A DNA stretch of 21,809 nt from a virus, in IMG/VR virus record IMGVR_UViG_3300025110_000153, positions 1 through 21,809 of that record, one strand, 5' to 3'. The notes beneath the pieces were generated by a model, which was not told the DNA's origin, did no database searches, and saw nothing but the letters and a program-made list of their open reading frames with translations. Made by a program: the position numbers and the translations under genes. Positions 1,214 to 11,409 of this stretch are shown here, piece after piece. The number at the start of each line of letters is the position of its first letter. Within the stretch, counting starts at the first letter, position 1.

Positions 1214-1932
1214 AAAGATACTTATTTACAGCACTATTGTTAATAAATAGTCCTGTAATTGCAGATACTACAATGACTAATAATCCAATAAGTAATAGTT
1301 CAGGAAGTGTAACTAATTTAGGTGTGATGAACATGCCGAGCAAGCAATTTACAAATACAATAAATCTACAACAGGTTCAATGCCAAGGTGACACCTTAGT
1401 TATTCAACCTTTTTTAACTGGTAATTACTCAGGAGGAATGCCAAAAGTTGGTAGTTTTCTTGAGCCTATATATTCAACTAAAGATGTAAAAGGTGCTACA
1501 GATGAAAATGGAGATGAGATAGGTGATGGAGAAGTTGACGATCCAACATTAATTCGTGGGTATAGAACAGTACAAAGATTTGAGAAAACTAATTATGCAA
1601 TAAGCCCAGGAATTAGTTTAAGTTGGAATATTAATCTGGATCGTAAAAGCGTCCGAAAGTGCAGGGAAGGGCAAGTGTACTTAGTAAACCTTTTACAAGC
1701 AAAGCACGAAGACGCACGATTATCCTACGAATTAGGAAGGGCTAAACATTGTGCAGATCTCCTGCAAAATGGAGTTAGGTTTAAAAAAGGAACTAAGTAC
1801 GAAGTCCTTTGTGCTGACATAGAACTTGTATCAAAACCAAACACGCTCATAGATCACACTCACTCTATTTCCGAAGATCCCTCTGAGCCTTTCTCCTTTC
1901 AGAAAGGGACAATAACTTCTCCTTCTTCTTAA
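1210..1932 (+). CDS. Secreted four-cysteine protein with Ca-loop-like motif, unknown function
   Basis: A 240-residue protein with a signal peptide (residues 1-18, cleavage after VIA). The mature part has an Asn/Ser-rich start, a beta-like region, then an acidic loop at about 98-111 (DENGDEIGDGEVDD) that resembles a DxNxD calcium-binding loop. About 138-150 reads ISLSWNINLDRK, and a helical charged stretch follows at 150-180. Four cysteines lie at 58, 151, 181 and 201, suitable for two disulfides after export. From memory, the DRK...C...C...CAD arrangement resembles a hypothetical secreted family of cyanophages; this is unverified. The start overlaps the previous stop. The last 68 bp overlap the convergent minus-strand gene that ends at 1865. 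Confidence 0.72.
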   Translation: MKRYLFTALLLINSPVIADTTMTNNPISNSSGSVTNLGVMNMPSKQFTNTINLQQVQCQGDTLVIQPFLTGNYSGGMPKVGSFLEPIYSTKDVKGATDENGDEIGDGEVDDPTLIRGYRTVQRFEKTNYAISPGISLSWNINLDRKSVRKCREGQVYLVNLLQAKHEDARLSYELGRAKHCADLLQNGVRFKKGTKYEVLCADIELVSKPNTLIDHTHSISEDPSEPFSFQKGTITSPSS

Positions 1933-2677
1933 ATAATTTCTTAGCAAGTGCTTTAGACCGTTTCTTAATTTGCTTCTGGATCTGACGTTGAACGATTTTT
2001 ATGTAGGGTTGAAGAGTACCTACTGCCAAAATGCTTGTCACAGCTATTGCAGATGTTGAAACCAATAATGGAACAGGGGGAGCGTAATTTCCTGCTATTT
2101 CTAATGGATTAAGTCCTTCCCATACTGTTTCACATTTACCTGTTACTTGATCTCTTTTCCAACCTTTAATCCTTGCAAGTCCTCCTTTACCTAACGAACC
2201 AATAGGAGTTTTAGCAAGTGTGTCTAAAGGTGGGCAGGGCAATGTTTCTGCAATAAACTCTCCATCAAGATTTGGAGTTTTTGGAATTTGATTACTTACA
2301 TTGGAATCGCCTTTCTCGTCACTTTTTCCATCATCCTTTTTCACTTCCTCTCCTACATCGTTTAAAGCATTTAAAAGCTCAACAGGAGTGTCAGGTTTAG
2401 GTGCTTCTATATCAGCGTAAAGATCAGGAGCAATAAATAGAACAGGGGCATGATCACAAAGGGTGTAATTATTCTGTGGGTCTACGTTAAACATTTCACT
2501 TCCTGTTCCTGTTTTCTTATCTCTGGCTACAACGCAAGGAAGTTCAATAATTGGAACGAAGCCAAATGGCAGTTCACCAAAAGTAGTAGGAGGGATTATT
2601 TCCGCAGGAGGAATTATTGTTAATTCTGGTAGATCTTTAACCTTTGGCTCATTTATAAAAGGAGGATTTAATTCCAC
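1865..2677 (-). CDS. Pro-rich protein with one membrane segment and basic tail, unknown function
   Basis: A 270-residue protein starting with GTG directly after the upstream stop (TAG GTG). The N-terminal part is rich in Pro and Ile/Leu (about 1-50), followed by an acidic Lys/Asp linker (about 108-125). Four cysteines lie at 48, 74, 148 and 182. A hydrophobic segment at about 203-221 is probably membrane-spanning, and the last 45 residues are strongly basic (KKRSKALAKKLFKKKEK and more). By the positive-inside rule the tail would be cytoplasmic and the four-cysteine part outside. There is no N-terminal signal peptide. It is the last gene of a four-gene overlapping cluster. Its 3' end overlaps the convergent secreted-protein gene by 68 bp. 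I recall similar Pro-rich proteins with a membrane/basic end in cyanophages, without being able to check. Confidence 0.68.
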   Translation of the reverse strand: MELNPPFINEPKVKDLPELTIIPPAEIIPPTTFGELPFGFVPIIELPCVVARDKKTGTGSEMFNVDPQNNYTLCDHAPVLFIAPDLYADIEAPKPDTPVELLNALNDVGEEVKKDDGKSDEKGDSNVSNQIPKTPNLDGEFIAETLPCPPLDTLAKTPIGSLGKGGLARIKGWKRDQVTGKCETVWEGLNPLEIAGNYAPPVPLLVSTSAIAVTSILAVGTLQPYIKIVQRQIQKQIKKRSKALAKKLFKKKEKLLSLSERRKAQRDLRK

Positions 2678-3235
2678 CTAGCAATCATTCCATTGCCCAG
2701 CAAGATCACTCGCAACACTTCCCAATTGTTTTCTGGACTGACCAAAGAAGATTCCCGCCAATACTGGGCCGATAATAGGTACGCTTGCTATGGCTGGTGT
2801 TACGGAAACGCTTGCACTATCCGCAATCAGTTGACCATTAGAACGCCCCTGAGCCATTTTTTCAATACATTCAATCTGTTCGTCTGTAAGTTTTCCTCCT
2901 GAACCTTTTGGATAAATTGCAAATTGAGCTACATCCTGTTTATGTGTATATCTCTTTTTAACTTTGCCATTAAAGGTAGGTTTTTCATCATCAATAATTG
3001 TTGTGACTAGCTTTGGATCGTGTTGCTTAGAATTAAACATCCATTCTTCAGCACCGTCAGGCTTAGTCTCACTCCTAATTTGAATTGAACTATAAGGAGT
3101 ACTAGAAAGCTTGGCTATATCAGGTATTCCAGAATCTTTACGAGCCAAAAGGTTAAGGCTCATAAAATTCGTAGCGATTAAACCACCGCCTAACACTAAA
3201 GAAGTCAAGCCGTTAAATGACTTAAATTGAATCAT
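2678..3235 (-). CDS. Membrane-associated protein with two hydrophobic segments, unknown function
   Basis: A 185-residue protein. Residues about 9-30 form a hydrophobic segment (LTSLVLGGGLIATNFMSLNLL), a signal anchor or membrane helix. A polar middle follows, including QFAIYPKGSGG and LTDEQIECIEKMAQG. A second hydrophobic, Gly/Ala/Pro-containing segment at about 143-165 ends in FFGQSRKQ. Cysteines are at 123 and at the C-terminal residue 185. The ATG overlaps the upstream stop in an ATGA (3235-3232), and the GTG of the next gene follows the stop directly, so it is translated within a tight cluster. No known domain is recognised. The two segments could place the polar middle in the periplasm, or the C-terminal one could be buried in a soluble fold. 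Confidence 0.68.
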   Translation of the reverse strand: MIQFKSFNGLTSLVLGGGLIATNFMSLNLLARKDSGIPDIAKLSSTPYSSIQIRSETKPDGAEEWMFNSKQHDPKLVTTIIDDEKPTFNGKVKKRYTHKQDVAQFAIYPKGSGGKLTDEQIECIEKMAQGRSNGQLIADSASVSVTPAIASVPIIGPVLAGIFFGQSRKQLGSVASDLAGQWNDC

Positions 3236-3450
3236 TTGTTAAACGGAGTACCTTTTAAGGAAGCCCCACCTGTCATAGGAGGAATAGTAGGCATTTTTGG
3301 CATTGCTCCTTTAACAAGAGAAGGCAATTGCTTTTGCACTTCAGTCATTATGGATTCTGTAATCTTGCCACGATTAAAGAAGGCAAACGTACCACCACCT
3401 ACTGCTACTACAAGAGCAGCAGTATTGATGTAAGTGAGGATCTTAAGCAT
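3232..3450 (-). CDS. Small single-pass membrane protein, unknown function
   Basis: A 72-residue protein when started at the ATG at 3450; a longer frame exists only with TTG at 3456. The ATG lies in ATGCTTAA, overlapping the upstream stop, which favours this start. Residues about 4-25 are hydrophobic (ILTYINTAALVVAVGGGTFAF), followed by a charged helix (RGKITESIMTEVQKQLP). The end is Pro/Met-rich (MPKMPTIPPMTGG). It would be anchored by its N-terminus with the rest on one side of the membrane. I recall very similar small proteins in cyanophage genomes with no assigned function, but this is memory only. Its stop overlaps the next start (ATGA). Confidence 0.62.
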   Translation of the reverse strand: MLKILTYINTAALVVAVGGGTFAFFNRGKITESIMTEVQKQLPSLVKGAMPKMPTIPPMTGGASLKGTPFNK

Positions 3451-3658
3451 CAGCAACGCCAGCTTCTTGATCTAACTGTTGTAGCAGTTCATCATTGATT
3501 TCTTTGATTCTAGAGTTCAAAGGATCAAGGCTGGCTTGAGTTGTAGCGTTTAAATCTTTTAATAATTCTGTTGCTTTAATATTATAATCATCGATAATTT
3601 CCTTTAATTGATTACTCAAGCTTGCCTTTTCTTGTACAAGTTCGTTACGATCAGCCAT
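3443..3658 (-). CDS. Small coiled-coil protein, unknown function
   Basis: A 71-residue, highly charged protein that is almost entirely predicted helix. It has heptad-like runs at about 4-35 (LVQEKASLSNQLKEIIDDY) and 45-65 (LDPLNSRIKEINDELLQQL). There is no signal peptide, membrane segment or cysteine, so it is probably a cytoplasmic or virion-associated oligomer. It is the first gene of the four-gene cluster and follows the fiber gene after a 63-nt gap that may hold a promoter. No clear ribosome site precedes the ATG. A small scaffold, chaperone or spanin-like partner for the membrane proteins downstream is possible but unsupported. Confidence 0.6.
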   Translation of the reverse strand: MADRNELVQEKASLSNQLKEIIDDYNIKATELLKDLNATTQASLDPLNSRIKEINDELLQQLDQEAGVADA

Positions 3659-6700: not shown

Positions 6701-9583
6701 TGTATAAGTTATATCTGCTGATTGAGCCTGAGCCTTAAAGCCTGTGAAATGTGCGCCGTCACTATCAGCTTCGCTTAGCCTTAATTCTTTTGCGTTATCA
6801 ATAATTAAATTGCCCGTCATGGTTGAACCAGACTTTGCGACAGCAGCACCAGCCGTTGTGGCAGCAGCATCAGCAGCATCCTTAGCTGCTTTTACAGAAG
6901 CACCTGTGGCCGCAAGGGTCGTACTAGTGCTTGTAGTCGAATCAACTAACTGGACAACACCAACAACAGAAGTGGTCCCTGCAACAATTTTCGAACCAGC
7001 AATTGCAGCCGATCCAGAAATATCAGCATTAACAATTGCTCCTGCTGCAATAGACGTAAGTCCTGCATTATTTATGCTTATGTCTCCTGTAACTGCTACT
7101 GCTGTTGGAACGTTTGATCCGTTACCAACAAGTATTTGAGCAGAAGTTAAAGAAGCTAACTTACTAAATGCAATTGCAGCTCCAGCAGCTAAATTCGCAT
7201 TGACTAAGCTTGCATCAACCATTGTTGATGTAACTGTATTTGTATCTCCACTTGTTATTACATTTCCAGAGACATCAGGAAAAAGTATTGTTTTATCGCT
7301 AGAAGTTGGATTCGTTACACCAATAGTGGTCTCAAATGCGTCTATACTCGAACCTTCAAAGACAAGGCTTCCGGTATTACCAACGAGTAGCTGACCCGTC
7401 AGTGTACCACCCGCGAAACCCATCTTTTCTGTTTCTAATTCTTGAATCGCATCTTGTACGTTAGTAGCACTAACTTGACCATAAGGTGTGAAAGTGATAT
7501 TGCTTGCCACTTGGCCCGCTACGGTCTGCGATAAATCGATCTCATTCCATGACGAGCCAGCACTATTTGTTACTCCTAAAATATAATCAGGAGGAGCAAA
7601 TGCGATAGCTGGAGCTGGAGAAGCTGGAGTTCCAGAACTTGATACAACGACATAAACACCATCCGTAGTAGCACTAGGTGTAGGCAAATTAGAACCAACA
7701 GATAAACCAGCAGCTATACCAGCCGAGGTTGTCGCAACCATTTGGCTCGTTCCAGCGTTATACGTTCCACCAAAAACAAGACTTCCTTTTGTCAGCGTAG
7801 TAATCGCTTGCCAAGCATTTCCATCCCAAATGAACGCATCCTCAGAGACAGTATCGAAAAGAATTTGTCCTGAAAAATCAGCCGTTGGATAACCACTTTG
7901 GGCAATAGATTGAAAGACTGCTGTAGAGCTATTGCTGAGTTTTGCCCCAGTAATAGAATCGTTAGCTATCCTCGCAGCATCTAAACTTCCACTTGTTATT
8001 TTACTAGCAGCAAGATTAGGAATCAAAGCAGCCGTTAATGCTGCACCCGATGTAACTACACCTTTAGTATTAACAGTAACTGATTGAAAAGTACCAGCAC
8101 TAACTCCACTTGTAGAAGTTGATAAATTACCAGAACCATCAACAGTTAAACCTCCATTAGATGTTATTTGTACTGCACCTTTAGCACTCGTGGTCGCTGT
8201 TGGGAGGTCTCCTGCTACTAAACCTGTAGCAGAAGTGATCTGCCCAGTACTCGAGAATGTGATACCTGAGACGGTTGCACCAGTTACGCTATTTGAAAGA
8301 GATAAAACGCCTGATCCGTTAACGCTTAACCCAGTGCCAACAGAAATACCACCAACAGCACTAGAAGTTGCTATAGGAAGGTCACTTGCTCCAAGTGCTG
8401 CTGTTCCAGTAATCAATCCTTGAACGTTATATGTGATCCCAGATCTTGTTGCTGCTCCACCAGTAACAGCATTATTAATACCAAGATTTCCACCCGCTAC
8501 ATTTAGTGATCTATCAATATTTGATGTATTTAATTTTGCAGCAGTAATTGTTCCATCTCTTAACTTGGTAGAGCCATCTAGACCAGTAGAACTATTAGTA
8601 GAAGTCTCAACTTTGTCATTTGTAACCGCTCCTGTATCAATACGACTTGCGTTAATAGCACTTGAGCCAATACGAGCAGCAGGAATAGTTCCACTTGTTA
8701 ATTTTGCAGCACTATGATCTGGAATATCTGCGGCAGCTAAAGTCCCTGTTCCAGTAACAATTCCTTTTGTATTTACAGTTACCTTTGCATAATCACCAGC
8801 ATTAACAGACGCTTGAGTCGCTATAGATAAATTTCCACTTACATCTACAGCCATTCCTCCAGAAGTAGGAACAATAACCCCACCTTTTGCCGATGTTGTA
8901 GCGGCAGGAATAGTTGTAGCAGTAGCAGAGGTTGACCCTGCAGTAACTTGTCCTTTTGCGTTGACTGTTACAGACGCATACGTTCCAGCAGAAAGACCAC
9001 TTACGTTTTTTACATCTATTGCTCCTGTATTACTAACTTCTAGTAAAGAACCAGATTCAACCTTTACAGCACCAATAGCACTAGCTGTTGCTTCAGGTAA
9101 ATCAGTAGAAGAAAGGTCGGCAACACTACTAATTAATCCTTCTGCTGTATAAGTAATTCCGTTTTTTGTTCCTGATGTAATACTATTTCCAATCCCAAGC
9201 TTGGAGGCAACAACAGATAAGCCACGATCAAATTTACTAGCATCTAATTTAACAACAGGTACAGATCCATCTCTTAACTTTTGGCTGCCATCAATCCCAG
9301 TAGTTGCAGATGTAGAAGTCTCAATTTTTATATTAGTAACTTTATTATCAACTATTGTTGCTGTGTCTACTAGGTTCGTTCCTAACGTTCCTACTTTCGA
9401 TCCTGGTATTGCTCCGTCAGCTAAAAAACTAGTTCCCGTTGCCGTAACAACAGCGTTCACCAAGTCTTTTACAGTTACCTTTTTTGTTTCAGTTGCGCTG
9501 ACGTCAGCAACAGCTAATTCGTCAGCCTGATTAATATCTGCTTCGACAAGCCGATTTAAACCAGTTATCTGTAGATCAGCCAT
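3722..9583 (-). CDS. Giant tail fiber protein with internal duplication and propeller-like C-terminal region
   Basis: A 1953-residue fiber, probably the host-binding organ at the tail tip. Residues 1-60 (MADLQITGLN, then AVADVSATETKKVTVKDL) resemble a virion-attachment segment common in marine phage fibers. Residues about 80-540 are two Ser/Thr/Gly-rich direct repeats of about 225 residues. Later come LTG motifs typical of fiber shafts (GGTLTGQLLV at about 725, GSTMTGNLII at about 918), an Ala-rich helix (897-917) and beta-rich repeats such as GNIGIGTTSPN (1343-1353). About 1480-1880 holds repeated strand patterns (NNVIIFAF, KFVIIYEE, DRLYIFLA, ERVVVIFE, QSVAMYQV) that suggest a beta-propeller. 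The last 70 residues (YVGIANNTASDGQ to LVRS) resemble a conserved fiber cap. No intramolecular-chaperone ending is seen. The ribosome site is AGGA, 5 nt before the ATG. Confidence 0.88.
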   Translation of the reverse strand: MADLQITGLNRLVEADINQADELAVADVSATETKKVTVKDLVNAVVTATGTSFLADGAIPGSKVGTLGTNLVDTATIVDNKVTNIKIETSTSATTGIDGSQKLRDGSVPVVKLDASKFDRGLSVVASKLGIGNSITSGTKNGITYTAEGLISSVADLSSTDLPEATASAIGAVKVESGSLLEVSNTGAIDVKNVSGLSAGTYASVTVNAKGQVTAGSTSATATTIPAATTSAKGGVIVPTSGGMAVDVSGNLSIATQASVNAGDYAKVTVNTKGIVTGTGTLAAADIPDHSAAKLTSGTIPAARIGSSAINASRIDTGAVTNDKVETSTNSSTGLDGSTKLRDGTITAAKLNTSNIDRSLNVAGGNLGINNAVTGGAATRSGITYNVQGLITGTAALGASDLPIATSSAVGGISVGTGLSVNGSGVLSLSNSVTGATVSGITFSSTGQITSATGLVAGDLPTATTSAKGAVQITSNGGLTVDGSGNLSTSTSGVSAGTFQSVTVNTKGVVTSGAALTAALIPNLAASKITSGSLDAARIANDSITGAKLSNSSTAVFQSIAQSGYPTADFSGQILFDTVSEDAFIWDGNAWQAITTLTKGSLVFGGTYNAGTSQMVATTSAGIAAGLSVGSNLPTPSATTDGVYVVVSSSGTPASPAPAIAFAPPDYILGVTNSAGSSWNEIDLSQTVAGQVASNITFTPYGQVSATNVQDAIQELETEKMGFAGGTLTGQLLVGNTGSLVFEGSSIDAFETTIGVTNPTSSDKTILFPDVSGNVITSGDTNTVTSTMVDASLVNANLAAGAAIAFSKLASLTSAQILVGNGSNVPTAVAVTGDISINNAGLTSIAAGAIVNADISGSAAIAGSKIVAGTTSVVGVVQLVDSTTSTSTTLAATGASVKAAKDAADAAATTAGAAVAKSGSTMTGNLIIDNAKELRLSEADSDGAHFTGFKAQAQSADITYTLPATAPTTGQVLKSGSTATTLEWATDSANAGGSNTQVQFNNSGAFAGSASLTFNSGTGALTATSFVGNVTGDLSGTASSLTVTANNTTDETVYLLFADGATGSQGAESDTGLTYNPSTGLLTSTGFSGSGASLTSLNASNLGSGTVATARLGTGTASSSNYLRGDGTWQAVPSGTTINNNANNRVITGSGTANTLEGEANLTFDGTTLAVTGTASANAIQSSYGGITTRLGYVSGGAEGVVETTSNHSLVLGVNSSEKARIDSSGRLLVGLTDGSQSTQDGNLQIKQSACIRRHVASAGAGTLRFEKTRAATDTNTVVQNGDNLGEIFWYGADGNSYELAAGISASVDATPGDGDMPGRLSFGTTPDGSAGLTTRMVITNSGNIGIGTTSPNVYANQTTLTIDGTDNSRLDLEVGGTLKGSIWTNSGGIGIDAGANEISLYSGSAERFKIGNSGQLGIGGATYGTSGQVLTSGGSGAAVSWADAGGAPEITANASGAVTAGKTMIINSNGTTSPVSATTAIRSTALWGTNTDSSLTSNNGKDWKLCYDNDNNVIIFAFKNSSNDIKAYAGTPGTDTITWGSETTIESNNSQGVDIAYVGSGKFVIIYEETSQGYCKGRMISVSNNAITVGAARGMMNGQDGGNKPTCVYHPEQDRLYIFLARQNNERVHMAACLVDQSNIDAWESDWRGKTVGGSGQDPDGLMLYGPVAGANKNTRLDVGDQGVSTGTRAVYDSVSERVVVIFECMSDTSIMVTSCDVMTSDGRSNPQTVNTNSPDQYSNMTIAYDSVTDQSVAMYQVSNNVYARALDFGGSSFSMGTEITVYNAASNRSEVRGISGGCVAFLYQGPNDDLSCKIGTLNTSDDNISLSAVGTLSSDINSGNGSPTATIWNPTQEKIHVQYKQGDSGPKYFDTVAVTETTTTALRYVGIANNTASDGQSVTIRTFGSTNSNQSSLTPGSVYYIQKNGTLATTADTPSVVAGVALSATSILVRS
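7967..9340 (-). repeat. Tandem duplication of about 225 codons inside the fiber gene
   Basis: Two diverged direct copies are visible at protein level: fiber residues about 82-306 (bases 9340-8666) and 320-539 (8626-7967), offset by 238 residues. Matching landmarks in order are VTNIKIETSTS / VTNDKVETSTN, GIDGSQKLRDG / GLDGSTKLRDG, GITYTAEGLIS / GITYNVQGLIT, DLPEATASAIG / DLPIATSSAVG, VTVNTKGIVTG / VTVNTKGVVTS and KLTSGTIPAARI / KITSGSLDAARI. The copies have diverged clearly, so the duplication is old. Fibers commonly change shaft length this way. Confidence 0.85.
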
Positions 9584-9615: not shown

Positions 9616-10482
9616 TTAAACCTGTTCGAGCAATATGGGACTAAGATTTTCCTGAAGAATTTTATCTGAGCTTTCTTGTAATAAATAACCAGGGGTGTCA
9701 CCCGTCTTTAATTTGACTGATCCATTGGTTACAAATTCAATTCTTGTCTCAATAACTTCAGCAGGACTAACACTTACAGCGACATTTGTAATAATGCAGT
9801 TTGCCTCATAGTAAACATTATTTTTAGCATTATTAGTATCACGGTAGATGTAAAACAATCCGTCAAAATCTGATCCTTGCTGTGTTCTAACAATTAATTG
9901 AGCAAGATAAAAAGGAAATTCTGAATCAGTGCCATATTCACTTTTTCTATTACCTGTCTCATAACTATGCTCCCAAATACAACTCATTGTTCCTTGACCG
10001 CTAATTATTCCTGCCTCGTATTGATTTCTAAATTCATCTCCAAGATTCGTTAAATCAACCTGCTCTCTACTCGTTGTCATTTCAAAATCTCTTACATTTG
10101 CAACATGCCTAAAATTTTCATTCCTAGTTTTTATCAGAATATCTTTTGAAGCGCTAGGGACTGCAAGCGCCAAAGCTGTTGATTGCAAACCTTCAATTGC
10201 TTTAGCAAATGTGTCATACAAACGAAGCCCTCCTACAGGGTCAACATTTACAAACCAACTACCGTCTTCATAAGAATGACCGCTAACAAGTTCAAGAGTT
10301 GACTTGTCTGCTGTTGCTATATCAATTCTATCTCCTGTTAACAACGAACCAGAACTATGGTCTACACTAAATCTTCTTCTAGAAGTATTGACATCAGAAG
10401 GATCTAACTTTGTTGCCAAAGTAGATTGAAGTGAATCTCTTTTAAGGGCTATTTCACCCGACTGACCAAAGTAAACACCCAT
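9616..10482 (-). CDS. Tail tube-fold paralog with inserted domain (tail tip/adaptor protein)
   Basis: A 288-residue protein. Its opening (MGVYFGQSGEIALKR) matches the openings of the adjacent 154-residue protein and the major tail tube protein. Residues 127-170 (VANVRDFEMTTSREQVDLTN, then QYEAGIISGQGTMSC) and the later ITNVAVSVSPAEVIETRIEF segment repeat the tube-protein signature. Residues about 38-110 are an insertion with LLTGDRIDIAT and FVNVDPVGGLRLYDTFAKAI, at the same place as an insertion in the major tail tube protein. The C-terminus carries a short repeated pattern (LLQESSDKILQENLSPILLE). The start ATG lies at the stop of the preceding gene, one shared base. It is followed by the fiber, so it may form a ring joining fiber and tip. 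That role is inferred. Confidence 0.65.
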   Translation of the reverse strand: MGVYFGQSGEIALKRDSLQSTLATKLDPSDVNTSRRRFSVDHSSGSLLTGDRIDIATADKSTLELVSGHSYEDGSWFVNVDPVGGLRLYDTFAKAIEGLQSTALALAVPSASKDILIKTRNENFRHVANVRDFEMTTSREQVDLTNLGDEFRNQYEAGIISGQGTMSCIWEHSYETGNRKSEYGTDSEFPFYLAQLIVRTQQGSDFDGLFYIYRDTNNAKNNVYYEANCIITNVAVSVSPAEVIETRIEFVTNGSVKLKTGDTPGYLLQESSDKILQENLSPILLEQV

Positions 10483-10946
10483 TAGTTAACCAAAGTTGTA
10501 TTGGTAAATGGCGCTCCATTTGCTTCCCAACTAATATCCGCAGAAGCAACCTCTCCAGTTGCAATACTCATTGATACACCAGTTATAAAAGCAGAAAATT
10601 GAATATCTCTTATATCGTTTGCTCCTGTTGTTAAACGTAATTTCAAAGTAACTGCTGTTGAAGCTGTATTTTCTCCTTCGCCTGCTGCTGTTCCCGTTCC
10701 AATAGCATTTGTCAAAATTGCATTTAAATTTGATGGTTTGCTAGACGCTGAATTGTCTTCTGTGTAGTAAAACAATCTTGCACTACCTGAGTAACTTCTA
10801 ACTCCAGCAGCGAGAGTTCTATCAGTGTCTGCCATTGAAGTAGTTTCAAGAACAGCCATTGAACCAGAGAAAGACCAAGACTGGATCTTTGCAGCCTTAA
10901 CGTCTCCTATGTAAAGTTCTCCGTCTTTACCTGAATAAAAAGCCAC
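10482..10946 (-). CDS. Tail tube-fold protein (second paralog)
   Basis: A 154-residue protein starting at GTG (10946-10944). It carries the same compact fold signature as the major tail tube protein. The opening is AFYSGKDGELYIGD; then IQSWSFSGSMAVLETTSMAD and SYSGSARLFYY follow in the first half. FITGVSMSIATGEVASADIS and WEANGAP come near the end. Unlike its two relatives it has no inserted domain, so it may be close to the basic tube unit. It lies between a minor tail gene and the third paralog, with stop and start joined to the latter. A role as a tip-proximal tube or distal-tail ring is likely from position; a plain second tube protein is the alternative. Confidence 0.65.
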   Translation of the reverse strand: MAFYSGKDGELYIGDVKAAKIQSWSFSGSMAVLETTSMADTDRTLAAGVRSYSGSARLFYYTEDNSASSKPSNLNAILTNAIGTGTAAGEGENTASTAVTLKLRLTTGANDIRDIQFSAFITGVSMSIATGEVASADISWEANGAPFTNTTLVN

Positions 10947-10974: not shown

Positions 10975-11409
10975 TTATATGGGTGCATCTAAACAAGCAA
11001 CAAAACTACAGCTAACATTATTTCTTCCGACAAAAGTAGTAGTTACAGTAGGCGGTCCTGAAAATCTCCATTTTAACTGCGTTTCTTCAATATATTGGTT
11101 TTGCAAATTAGTATCTGTGACTCCTGCTGTAACAACTTTGTTTCTTACATTATTCTCAATAAACTCAATCCAAGTAGATTGGGTTGAAGTCCAATCTTCG
11201 TTTGAATCTTTATAAGCTGCCAAAATACTAACAACATTAGCGTCACTAATATTTGAAAAACCAAGGGTCAGGGTCGCATTAATACGTCTGTTTCCATAGC
11301 GAAGAGTAGTCTTTGTTCCGTCCAAAGATTCAAATTCAGTTTTTGGATAAGTCCCAGGAGAATAGCTTCTAGAACTTGGAGCGATAGAAGGAAAATATGT
11401 TGCAGGCAT
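10975..11409 (-). CDS. Minor tail protein of unknown function
   Basis: A 144-residue protein that follows the tip gene after a 3-nt gap. It begins with PATYFPSIAPSSRSYSPGTYP, then FESLDGTKTTLRYGNRRINATLTLGF with a probable beta hairpin, a helical NISDANVVSILAAYKDS and an aromatic end (LKWRFSGPPTVTTTFVGRNN). It has no signal peptide or membrane segment. This SRSYSPG...YP...G...RYGN arrangement is one I associate with small tail proteins of marine phages, without a firm family name. It lies between the J-like tip protein and two tube paralogs, so a tail-tip role is likely. Confidence 0.62.
   Translation of the reverse strand: MPATYFPSIAPSSRSYSPGTYPKTEFESLDGTKTTLRYGNRRINATLTLGFSNISDANVVSILAAYKDSNEDWTSTQSTWIEFIENNVRNKVVTAGVTDTNLQNQYIEETQLKWRFSGPPTVTTTFVGRNNVSCSFVACLDAPI

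Follow-up and report, generated by a model that had tools for sequence, protein, structure and literature searches.

Two proteins of 154 and 288 residues (P154 and P288), encoded one after the other between the tip and fibre genes of a virus record, are remote homologues of the major tail tube protein (TUBE) of the same phage, a homology well supported by the comparison of sequence profiles. P154 and P288 form a constant block with the fibre gene, and they diverge together and with the N-terminus of the fibre. The reading that we prefer, and to which we give an even chance, is that these divergent tube paralogs assemble into accessory tube-fold rings, one or two in number, within the distal tail complex, where they would seat the long fibre.

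A tail module with three tube-like genes

The window, by which we mean the whole stretch of DNA analysed, is the 21.8-kb virus record IMGVR_UViG_3300025110_000153. Its tail genes lie on the minus strand in the order head closure, P206, tail terminator, TUBE (256 aa), chaperone, tape measure, P155, NLPC, TIP (1393 aa), P144, P154, P288 and fibre (1953 aa). TUBE thus stands in the slot between the tail terminator and the chaperone and tape measure genes, and P154 and P288 come instead after TIP. The tape measure and fibre are labelled from their position and sequence character, and NLPC is a label only, for a 147-aa gene in the lambda gpK slot that is named without backing from family searches. 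The likeness of TUBE to a KBS-S-2A cyanophage protein (66% identity), and of TIP to tail proteins of S-LBS1, S-CBS1, S-CBS3 and Mic1, marks the virus as cyanosiphophage-like. The features discussed below are the following:

9404..9583, minus strand: N-terminal 60 residues of the fibre (1953 aa), with a conserved TKKVTVKDL-type head that co-diverges with P154 and P288
9616..10482, minus strand: P288, 288-aa tail-tube paralog by profile homology, with tube core, N-proximal insert and C-terminal tail; ATG start
9619..9708, minus strand: C-terminal tail of P288 (residues 259-288), with conserved LLQE..ILQE..ILLE repeats, outside the tube fold
9709..10125, minus strand: tail-tube core of P288 (residues about 120-258); HHalign to the TUBE core 87.5%, to the small tube profile 97.5%
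10123..10431, minus strand: insert of P288 after the first strand (residues about 18-120), placed like the insert of TUBE; the confident part of the AlphaFold model
10482..10946, minus strand: P154, plain 154-aa tail-tube paralog without insert, by profile homology; GTG start
10975..11409, minus strand: P144, minor tail protein, probably the distal tail protein of the gpM slot; five other loci have it ahead of P155
11413..15594, minus strand: TIP, 1393-aa tip protein; by HHalign, its C-terminal part aligns with the lambda gpJ hub region (gpJ 212-589 against TIP profile positions 1018-1369, 82.7%)
19463..20233, minus strand: TUBE, major tail tube protein, at its customary place after the tail terminator and before the chaperone and tape measure

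The stop of P154 and the start of P288 overlap by one base. After the fibre gene, at 1865-3658, four minus-strand ORFs of no assigned function meet plus-strand ORFs that are likewise unassigned.

P154 and P288 are divergent relatives of the tail tube protein

The original prediction had recognised two ORFs of 288 and 154 aa at 9616-10946, and had seen in them the same opening, core and end as in TUBE. Both ORFs are confirmed on the minus strand, and the three stretches are found in all three proteins. For P154, P288 and TUBE respectively, the opening reads YSGKDGELYI, YFGQSGEIAL and LSGTSGALYY; the core IQSWSFSGSMAVLETTSM, ANVRDFEMTTSREQVDLTNLG and GQVREWTFEIERAEIDVTTIG; and the end ITGVSMSIATGEVASADISWEANG, ITNVAVSVSPAEVIETRIEFVTNG and LTSASFSVNPDDAQEVTVNFRPAG. 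The likeness of the openings is visible by eye but unproven when taken alone, as the comparison of the opening and insert of P288 with those of TUBE is marginal (19.8 against a shuffle maximum of 19.5). A common origin of the two inserts as one homologous domain is likewise not supported by this marginal comparison, and we set the idea aside.

Relatives were gathered from IMG/VR and families compared as profiles. With ten tail-module families, HHalign gave 92.5% for TUBE-P154, 77.8% for TUBE-P288 and 12.4% for P154-P288, every other pair staying at or below 1.2%. In a deepened set, which adds members from wider and more distant loci, these values reached 97.1%, 96.8% and 95.0%, and the remaining 25 of 28 family pairs did not exceed 1.0%. 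The claim that one phage carries three tube-homologous genes is therefore borne out by HHalign, as it is by PHROG and small-tube profile matches. No column-shuffled alignment reached the observed score (0/100 in each of six comparisons), the closest case being P154-P288, with 25.4 observed and a shuffle maximum of 23.7; reversed alignments also fell below the observed scores.

Annotated tube proteins tell the same story. In PHROGs, phrog_10528 ("major tail protein") is matched by 37/37 members of the P154 family (best 5e-11) and by 34 of the 36 P288 members (best 2.6e-6). The major tail protein of MED4-117 aligns with P154 (96.4%), TUBE (95.6%) and P288 (88.1%), and the P154 and P288 profiles find the tube proteins of S-H1, MED4-184, DSL-LC06 and CRP-406. 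The last of these matches (E 6.7e-14) the tube of roseophage R4C (8GTB), solved by cryo-EM (PMC10276861). A profile of seven annotated small tube proteins, R4C included, aligns at 99.5% with P154, 98.6% with TUBE and 98.0% with P288, against at most 0.2% for five control families; as a single sequence, R4C reaches 63.5% with TUBE and a weak 5.9% with P154, and has no listed match to P288. Other searches returned less: P154 and P288 have no Pfam match above cut-off, a PDB sequence search with families A1, A2 and A3 found no tube protein, and lambda gpM and the R4C Dit, used as single sequences only, gave no match above 1% with either protein.

A tree of 34 tube cores places P154 in one well-supported clade and P288 in another, both of them separate from TUBE and the small tubes, although bootstrap values are rough. 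Judging from these sequences, P154 and P288 are old families and not recent copies.

Tube genes are also multiplied elsewhere. In the cultured cyanophages S-H1 (L163 6533-7374) and MED4-117 (L162 611-1030 and L160 18474-18833), the tube slot holds a pair of differing small tube genes; those of MED4-117 lie at opposite ends of its linear record, and a chaperone-like gene accompanies each. We considered whether the MED4-117 pair is an assembly overlap and rejected it, as the ends share no sequence and the two proteins differ. A 36.8-kb record (G006) has a fourth tube-like gene of 138 aa (L168 3679-4095; P154 profile E 6.9e-16), lying between terminase-like and portal-like genes, upstream of the head genes.

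Predicted structures

The AlphaFold model of P154 is moderate (pLDDT 67, pTM 0.62) and resembles tube proteins: the highest-scoring structure is that of the R-type bacteriocin tube CD1364 (Z 9.4, rmsd 5.0 over 122 residues), and tubes, Hcp or baseplate proteins account for many of the listed matches, with two matches that carry no tube name scoring 8.0 and 8.4. Against a viral library its top match is nameless; the highest-ranking match with a name is a tail tube protein. In P288, by contrast, the tube half is not confidently folded (pLDDT under 50), and the tube fold is predicted there from sequence alone; residues about 18-120 form a separate confident domain, for which there was no clear structural match. 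A VIA search with the P288 model returned unrelated entries (best Z 5.3) and was not used.

A constant gene block of uncultured viruses

P154 has relatives in 290 stretches of uncultured virus contigs. Among 153 partly overlapping IMG/VR loci, P154 lies directly upstream of P288 in 135/135 P288 copies with room for it, P144 lies upstream of P154 in 134/134 P154 copies with room, and the fibre follows P288 in all 122 P288 copies with room; the 122 complete loci reduce to 96 distinct P154-P288 DNA pairs. The one-base overlap recurs in 83 of the 135 P154-P288 pairs. P288 is strongly conserved, its median distance (0.24) being close to that of TUBE (0.20).

Searching 50,697 phage records by tblastn with P154, P288 and a diverged P288 (L012) gave no relative at E 0.01, and a pattern scan of genome contigs with family A2 gave 63 matches and no confirmed relative. 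A tube-paralog pair of this kind is not named in the cyanophage literature covered, from which subscription papers mostly fell outside, so that its absence there is unproven.

Co-divergence links the pair to the fibre

Co-divergence was measured from pairwise protein distances (rho), dropping truncated genes and loci without the compared genes, which left 39 common loci, and 14 loci for the comparisons with TUBE. In the 39 loci, P154 and P288 are linked at 0.69, P144 with P154 and P288 at 0.42 and 0.45, and the fibre N-terminus with P154 and P288 at 0.39 and 0.38, values that none of 2000 permutations reached. P155, NLPC and TIP form a second block (0.87 to 0.95), and P144 is linked to both blocks (0.42 to 0.49). 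Across the blocks, the tip genes reach 0.11 to 0.20 with P154 or P288 (TIP at most 0.18), and show no link with the fibre N-terminus (0.06 to 0.09). In the 14 TUBE loci, TUBE and its chaperone reach 0.66; TUBE with P154 (0.28, 141/2000 permutations) and with P288 (0.34, 133/2000) is not significant, nor, in this smaller set, is P288 with the fibre (0.32, 156/2000).

Neighbouring genes co-diverge through linkage alone, and such correlations do not prove contact. Linkage explains part of the pattern, but the weak link across TIP, set against the link that runs from P154 over P288 to the fibre, is not easily covered by it.

P144 and the exchange of tip modules

The family of TUBE is followed by more than one kind of tip. 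Of 80 TUBE loci, 33 have at least 6 kb downstream, with the P155-TIP module in 29 and a lambda-type module, as in KBS-S-2A, in four. Where the P155-TIP module is followed by 1 kb or more of sequence beyond TIP, P154 is present (14/14 loci); a fifteenth locus (L230), which lacks P154, is left out of this count, since its tip is of the lambda type and its "TIP" match is gpJ. In the lambda-type records, which may be fragments, a P288 match was found in 0/4 and the P154 profile picks up nothing but TUBE, which it hits in three of them. Four loci (L183, L197, L230, L245) show the same TUBE family followed either by P155-NLPC-TIP-P144-P154-P288 or by a tip module of the KBS-S-2A/lambda type. Because one TUBE family precedes either module, whole tip modules are exchanged.

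P144 occupies two positions: after TIP in the window (10975-11409), and before P155, in the slot of lambda gpM, in L191, L193, L198, L201 and L204. Three of these (L198, L201 and L204) also have TIP, P154 and P288, in that order. Neither P154 nor P288 was ever seen in the slot between tape measure and hub, where P144 stands in those five loci. From this slot, and from its relatives in Mic1 and S-CBS3/S-LBS1, P144 is likely the distal tail protein, and P154 and P288 would therefore be extra rings and not the distal tail protein itself. We also considered P144 as a tube-fold protein by sequence and rejected it, as HHalign gives no support (2.8% with lambda gpM).

These observations weigh on the idea that P154 and P288 replace the distal tail protein, alternating in one hetero-hexameric ring between tube and hub, with P144 in another role. 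Two adjacent, overlapping tube-fold genes, one of them decorated, recall L15/L16 of Ceduovirus, for which such a ring is predicted (PMC12474359), and the co-divergence of P154 and P288 is strongest with each other. Yet the gpM slot is taken by P144 in five loci, three of them with the TIP-P154-P288 order, and there is little co-divergence with TIP or P155, so that we hold this arrangement to be unlikely.

Accessory rings that may seat the fibre

In the reading that we prefer, P154 and P288 would be produced together and would probably stack on, or mix with, each other. Their rings would continue the tube beside the ring of P144, the probable distal tail protein, and offer the long fibre its seat. 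The undecorated ring would be that of P154, comparable to T5 p140; P288 would be its decorated partner, with the insert and the conserved C-terminal tail perhaps facing outward to the fibre head. We place the rings next to P144, helping to seat the fibre, because known or predicted extra tube-fold rings, the Mu tube initiator gp43 among them, sit between tube and hub elsewhere. That P154 and P288 show no significant correlation with TUBE is a point against, since a ring that continues the tube should touch TUBE or P144.

The C-terminal tail of P288 is the candidate contact. By strict patterns, 86 distinct combinations of P288 tail and fibre head divide into 65 with both, 16 with the tail only, one with the head only and four with neither; the 21 exceptions, read by eye, have a recognisable tail and head in all but one (L257, record G019). 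G019 has the only P288 without an LLQE-type tail, and the next fibre there is also without the usual head. No other ORF of the 17 sequences scanned, window included, has the LLQE..ILQE..ILLE tail by strict pattern, and tblastn with the tail alone found nothing. We do not take tail and head as lock and key: they are jointly absent in one case only, and KBS-S-2A, where no relative of P154 or P288 was found, has a fibre with a similar head. The pairing is kept as a suggestion.

A bolder and more tentative version is that the two proteins make a second, short stretch of tube, composed of two different tube-fold rings, which belongs to the fibre module and not to the shaft, is exchanged with the fibre head independently of the hub, and seats the fibre through the LLQE-repeat tail of P288. 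If true, it would be the tube protein itself that anchors the fibre, in place of a collar or an upper baseplate protein.

The original prediction had imagined rings joining the tube or tip to the giant fibre, or capping the distal tail. Co-divergence with the fibre N-terminus and the constant P154-P288-fibre block lend partial support to a link with the fibre. A ring or collar beyond the hub, joining or capping the fibre, would agree with the gene order tip-P144-P154-P288-fibre and with co-divergence that involves the fibre head and hardly the tip. We judge it decidedly unlikely, however. Gene order is uninformative here, as P144 also follows the tip gene in the window and still occupies the gpM slot upstream of P155 in five other loci; genes after the tip need not encode parts beyond it. 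In the accessible portions of the literature on such rings, a tube-fold ring distal to the hub was not met, and the known or predicted extra rings (T5 p140, Ceduovirus L15/L16, lambda gpM) sit between tube and hub, which leaves capping unsupported.

Could P154 and P288 belong to the tail shaft, as minor or alternative subunits that are interspersed in the tube or make up one stretch of it? Duplicates of small tube genes do occur at the tube slot, in S-H1 and MED4-117, and one IMG/VR record has its further tube-like gene between terminase-like and portal-like genes. But no chaperone or tape measure gene adjoins P154 and P288, their co-divergence with TUBE and its chaperone is not significant, and their presence follows the type of tip module, not TUBE, which makes a shaft role quite improbable. 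That they are tube-fold by descent but non-structural or assembly-only, for instance a fibre assembly factor, is very improbable: virion data exist for no relative found, yet the pair is in every locus of this tip type with room, and P288 is nearly as conserved as TUBE.

Comparison with known systems

Three tube copies as the rule, and four in one record, show a repeated reuse of the tube protein in cyanophage-related long-tailed phages. Names are now available for genes that family libraries left unnamed or weakly matched, and the accessory rings that we favour suggest, in a form concrete enough to be tested, how a giant fibre might be held by a tail that has no recognised collar.

The tube proteins of MED4-117, MED4-184, S-H1, CRP-406, DSL-LC06 and R4C (phrog_10528, phrog_1407) are homologous to the tube core of P154 and P288, but their genes precede the tape measure gene, whereas P154 and P288 come after the tip. 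Lambda gpM and the distal tail proteins form a tube-fold ring between tube and hub (PMC10721106); as single sequences, lambda gpM and the R4C Dit gave no match above 1% with P154 or P288. The tube initiator gp43 of phage Mu is a tube-like hexamer ring with its own gene, placed in the baseplate and contacting the peripheral wedges (PMC11915804). It is likened to our pair by description only, and differs in belonging to a contractile tail and in its helix-rich second domain. Closer to our case, L15 and L16 of Ceduovirus are two adjacent paralogous tube-fold proteins at the tail end, like P154 and P288, and AlphaFold3 predicts for them an Hcp-like hetero-hexamer (PMC12474359); the Ceduovirus pair replaces the distal tail protein and bears carbohydrate-binding domains, whereas here the distal tail slot is filled, in five relatives, by P144, a protein distinct from the pair. 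In T5, p140 is a paralog of the tube protein located in the tip, an undecorated, pseudo-hexameric trimer whose ring lies at the anchoring point of the lateral fibres and is encircled by a distinct collar of p132 (PMC10038345). P154 is like p140 in being a tube paralog without decoration, a likeness drawn from description and not from sequence; here there are two single-domain paralogs, one of them decorated, encoded between the tip and the fibre.
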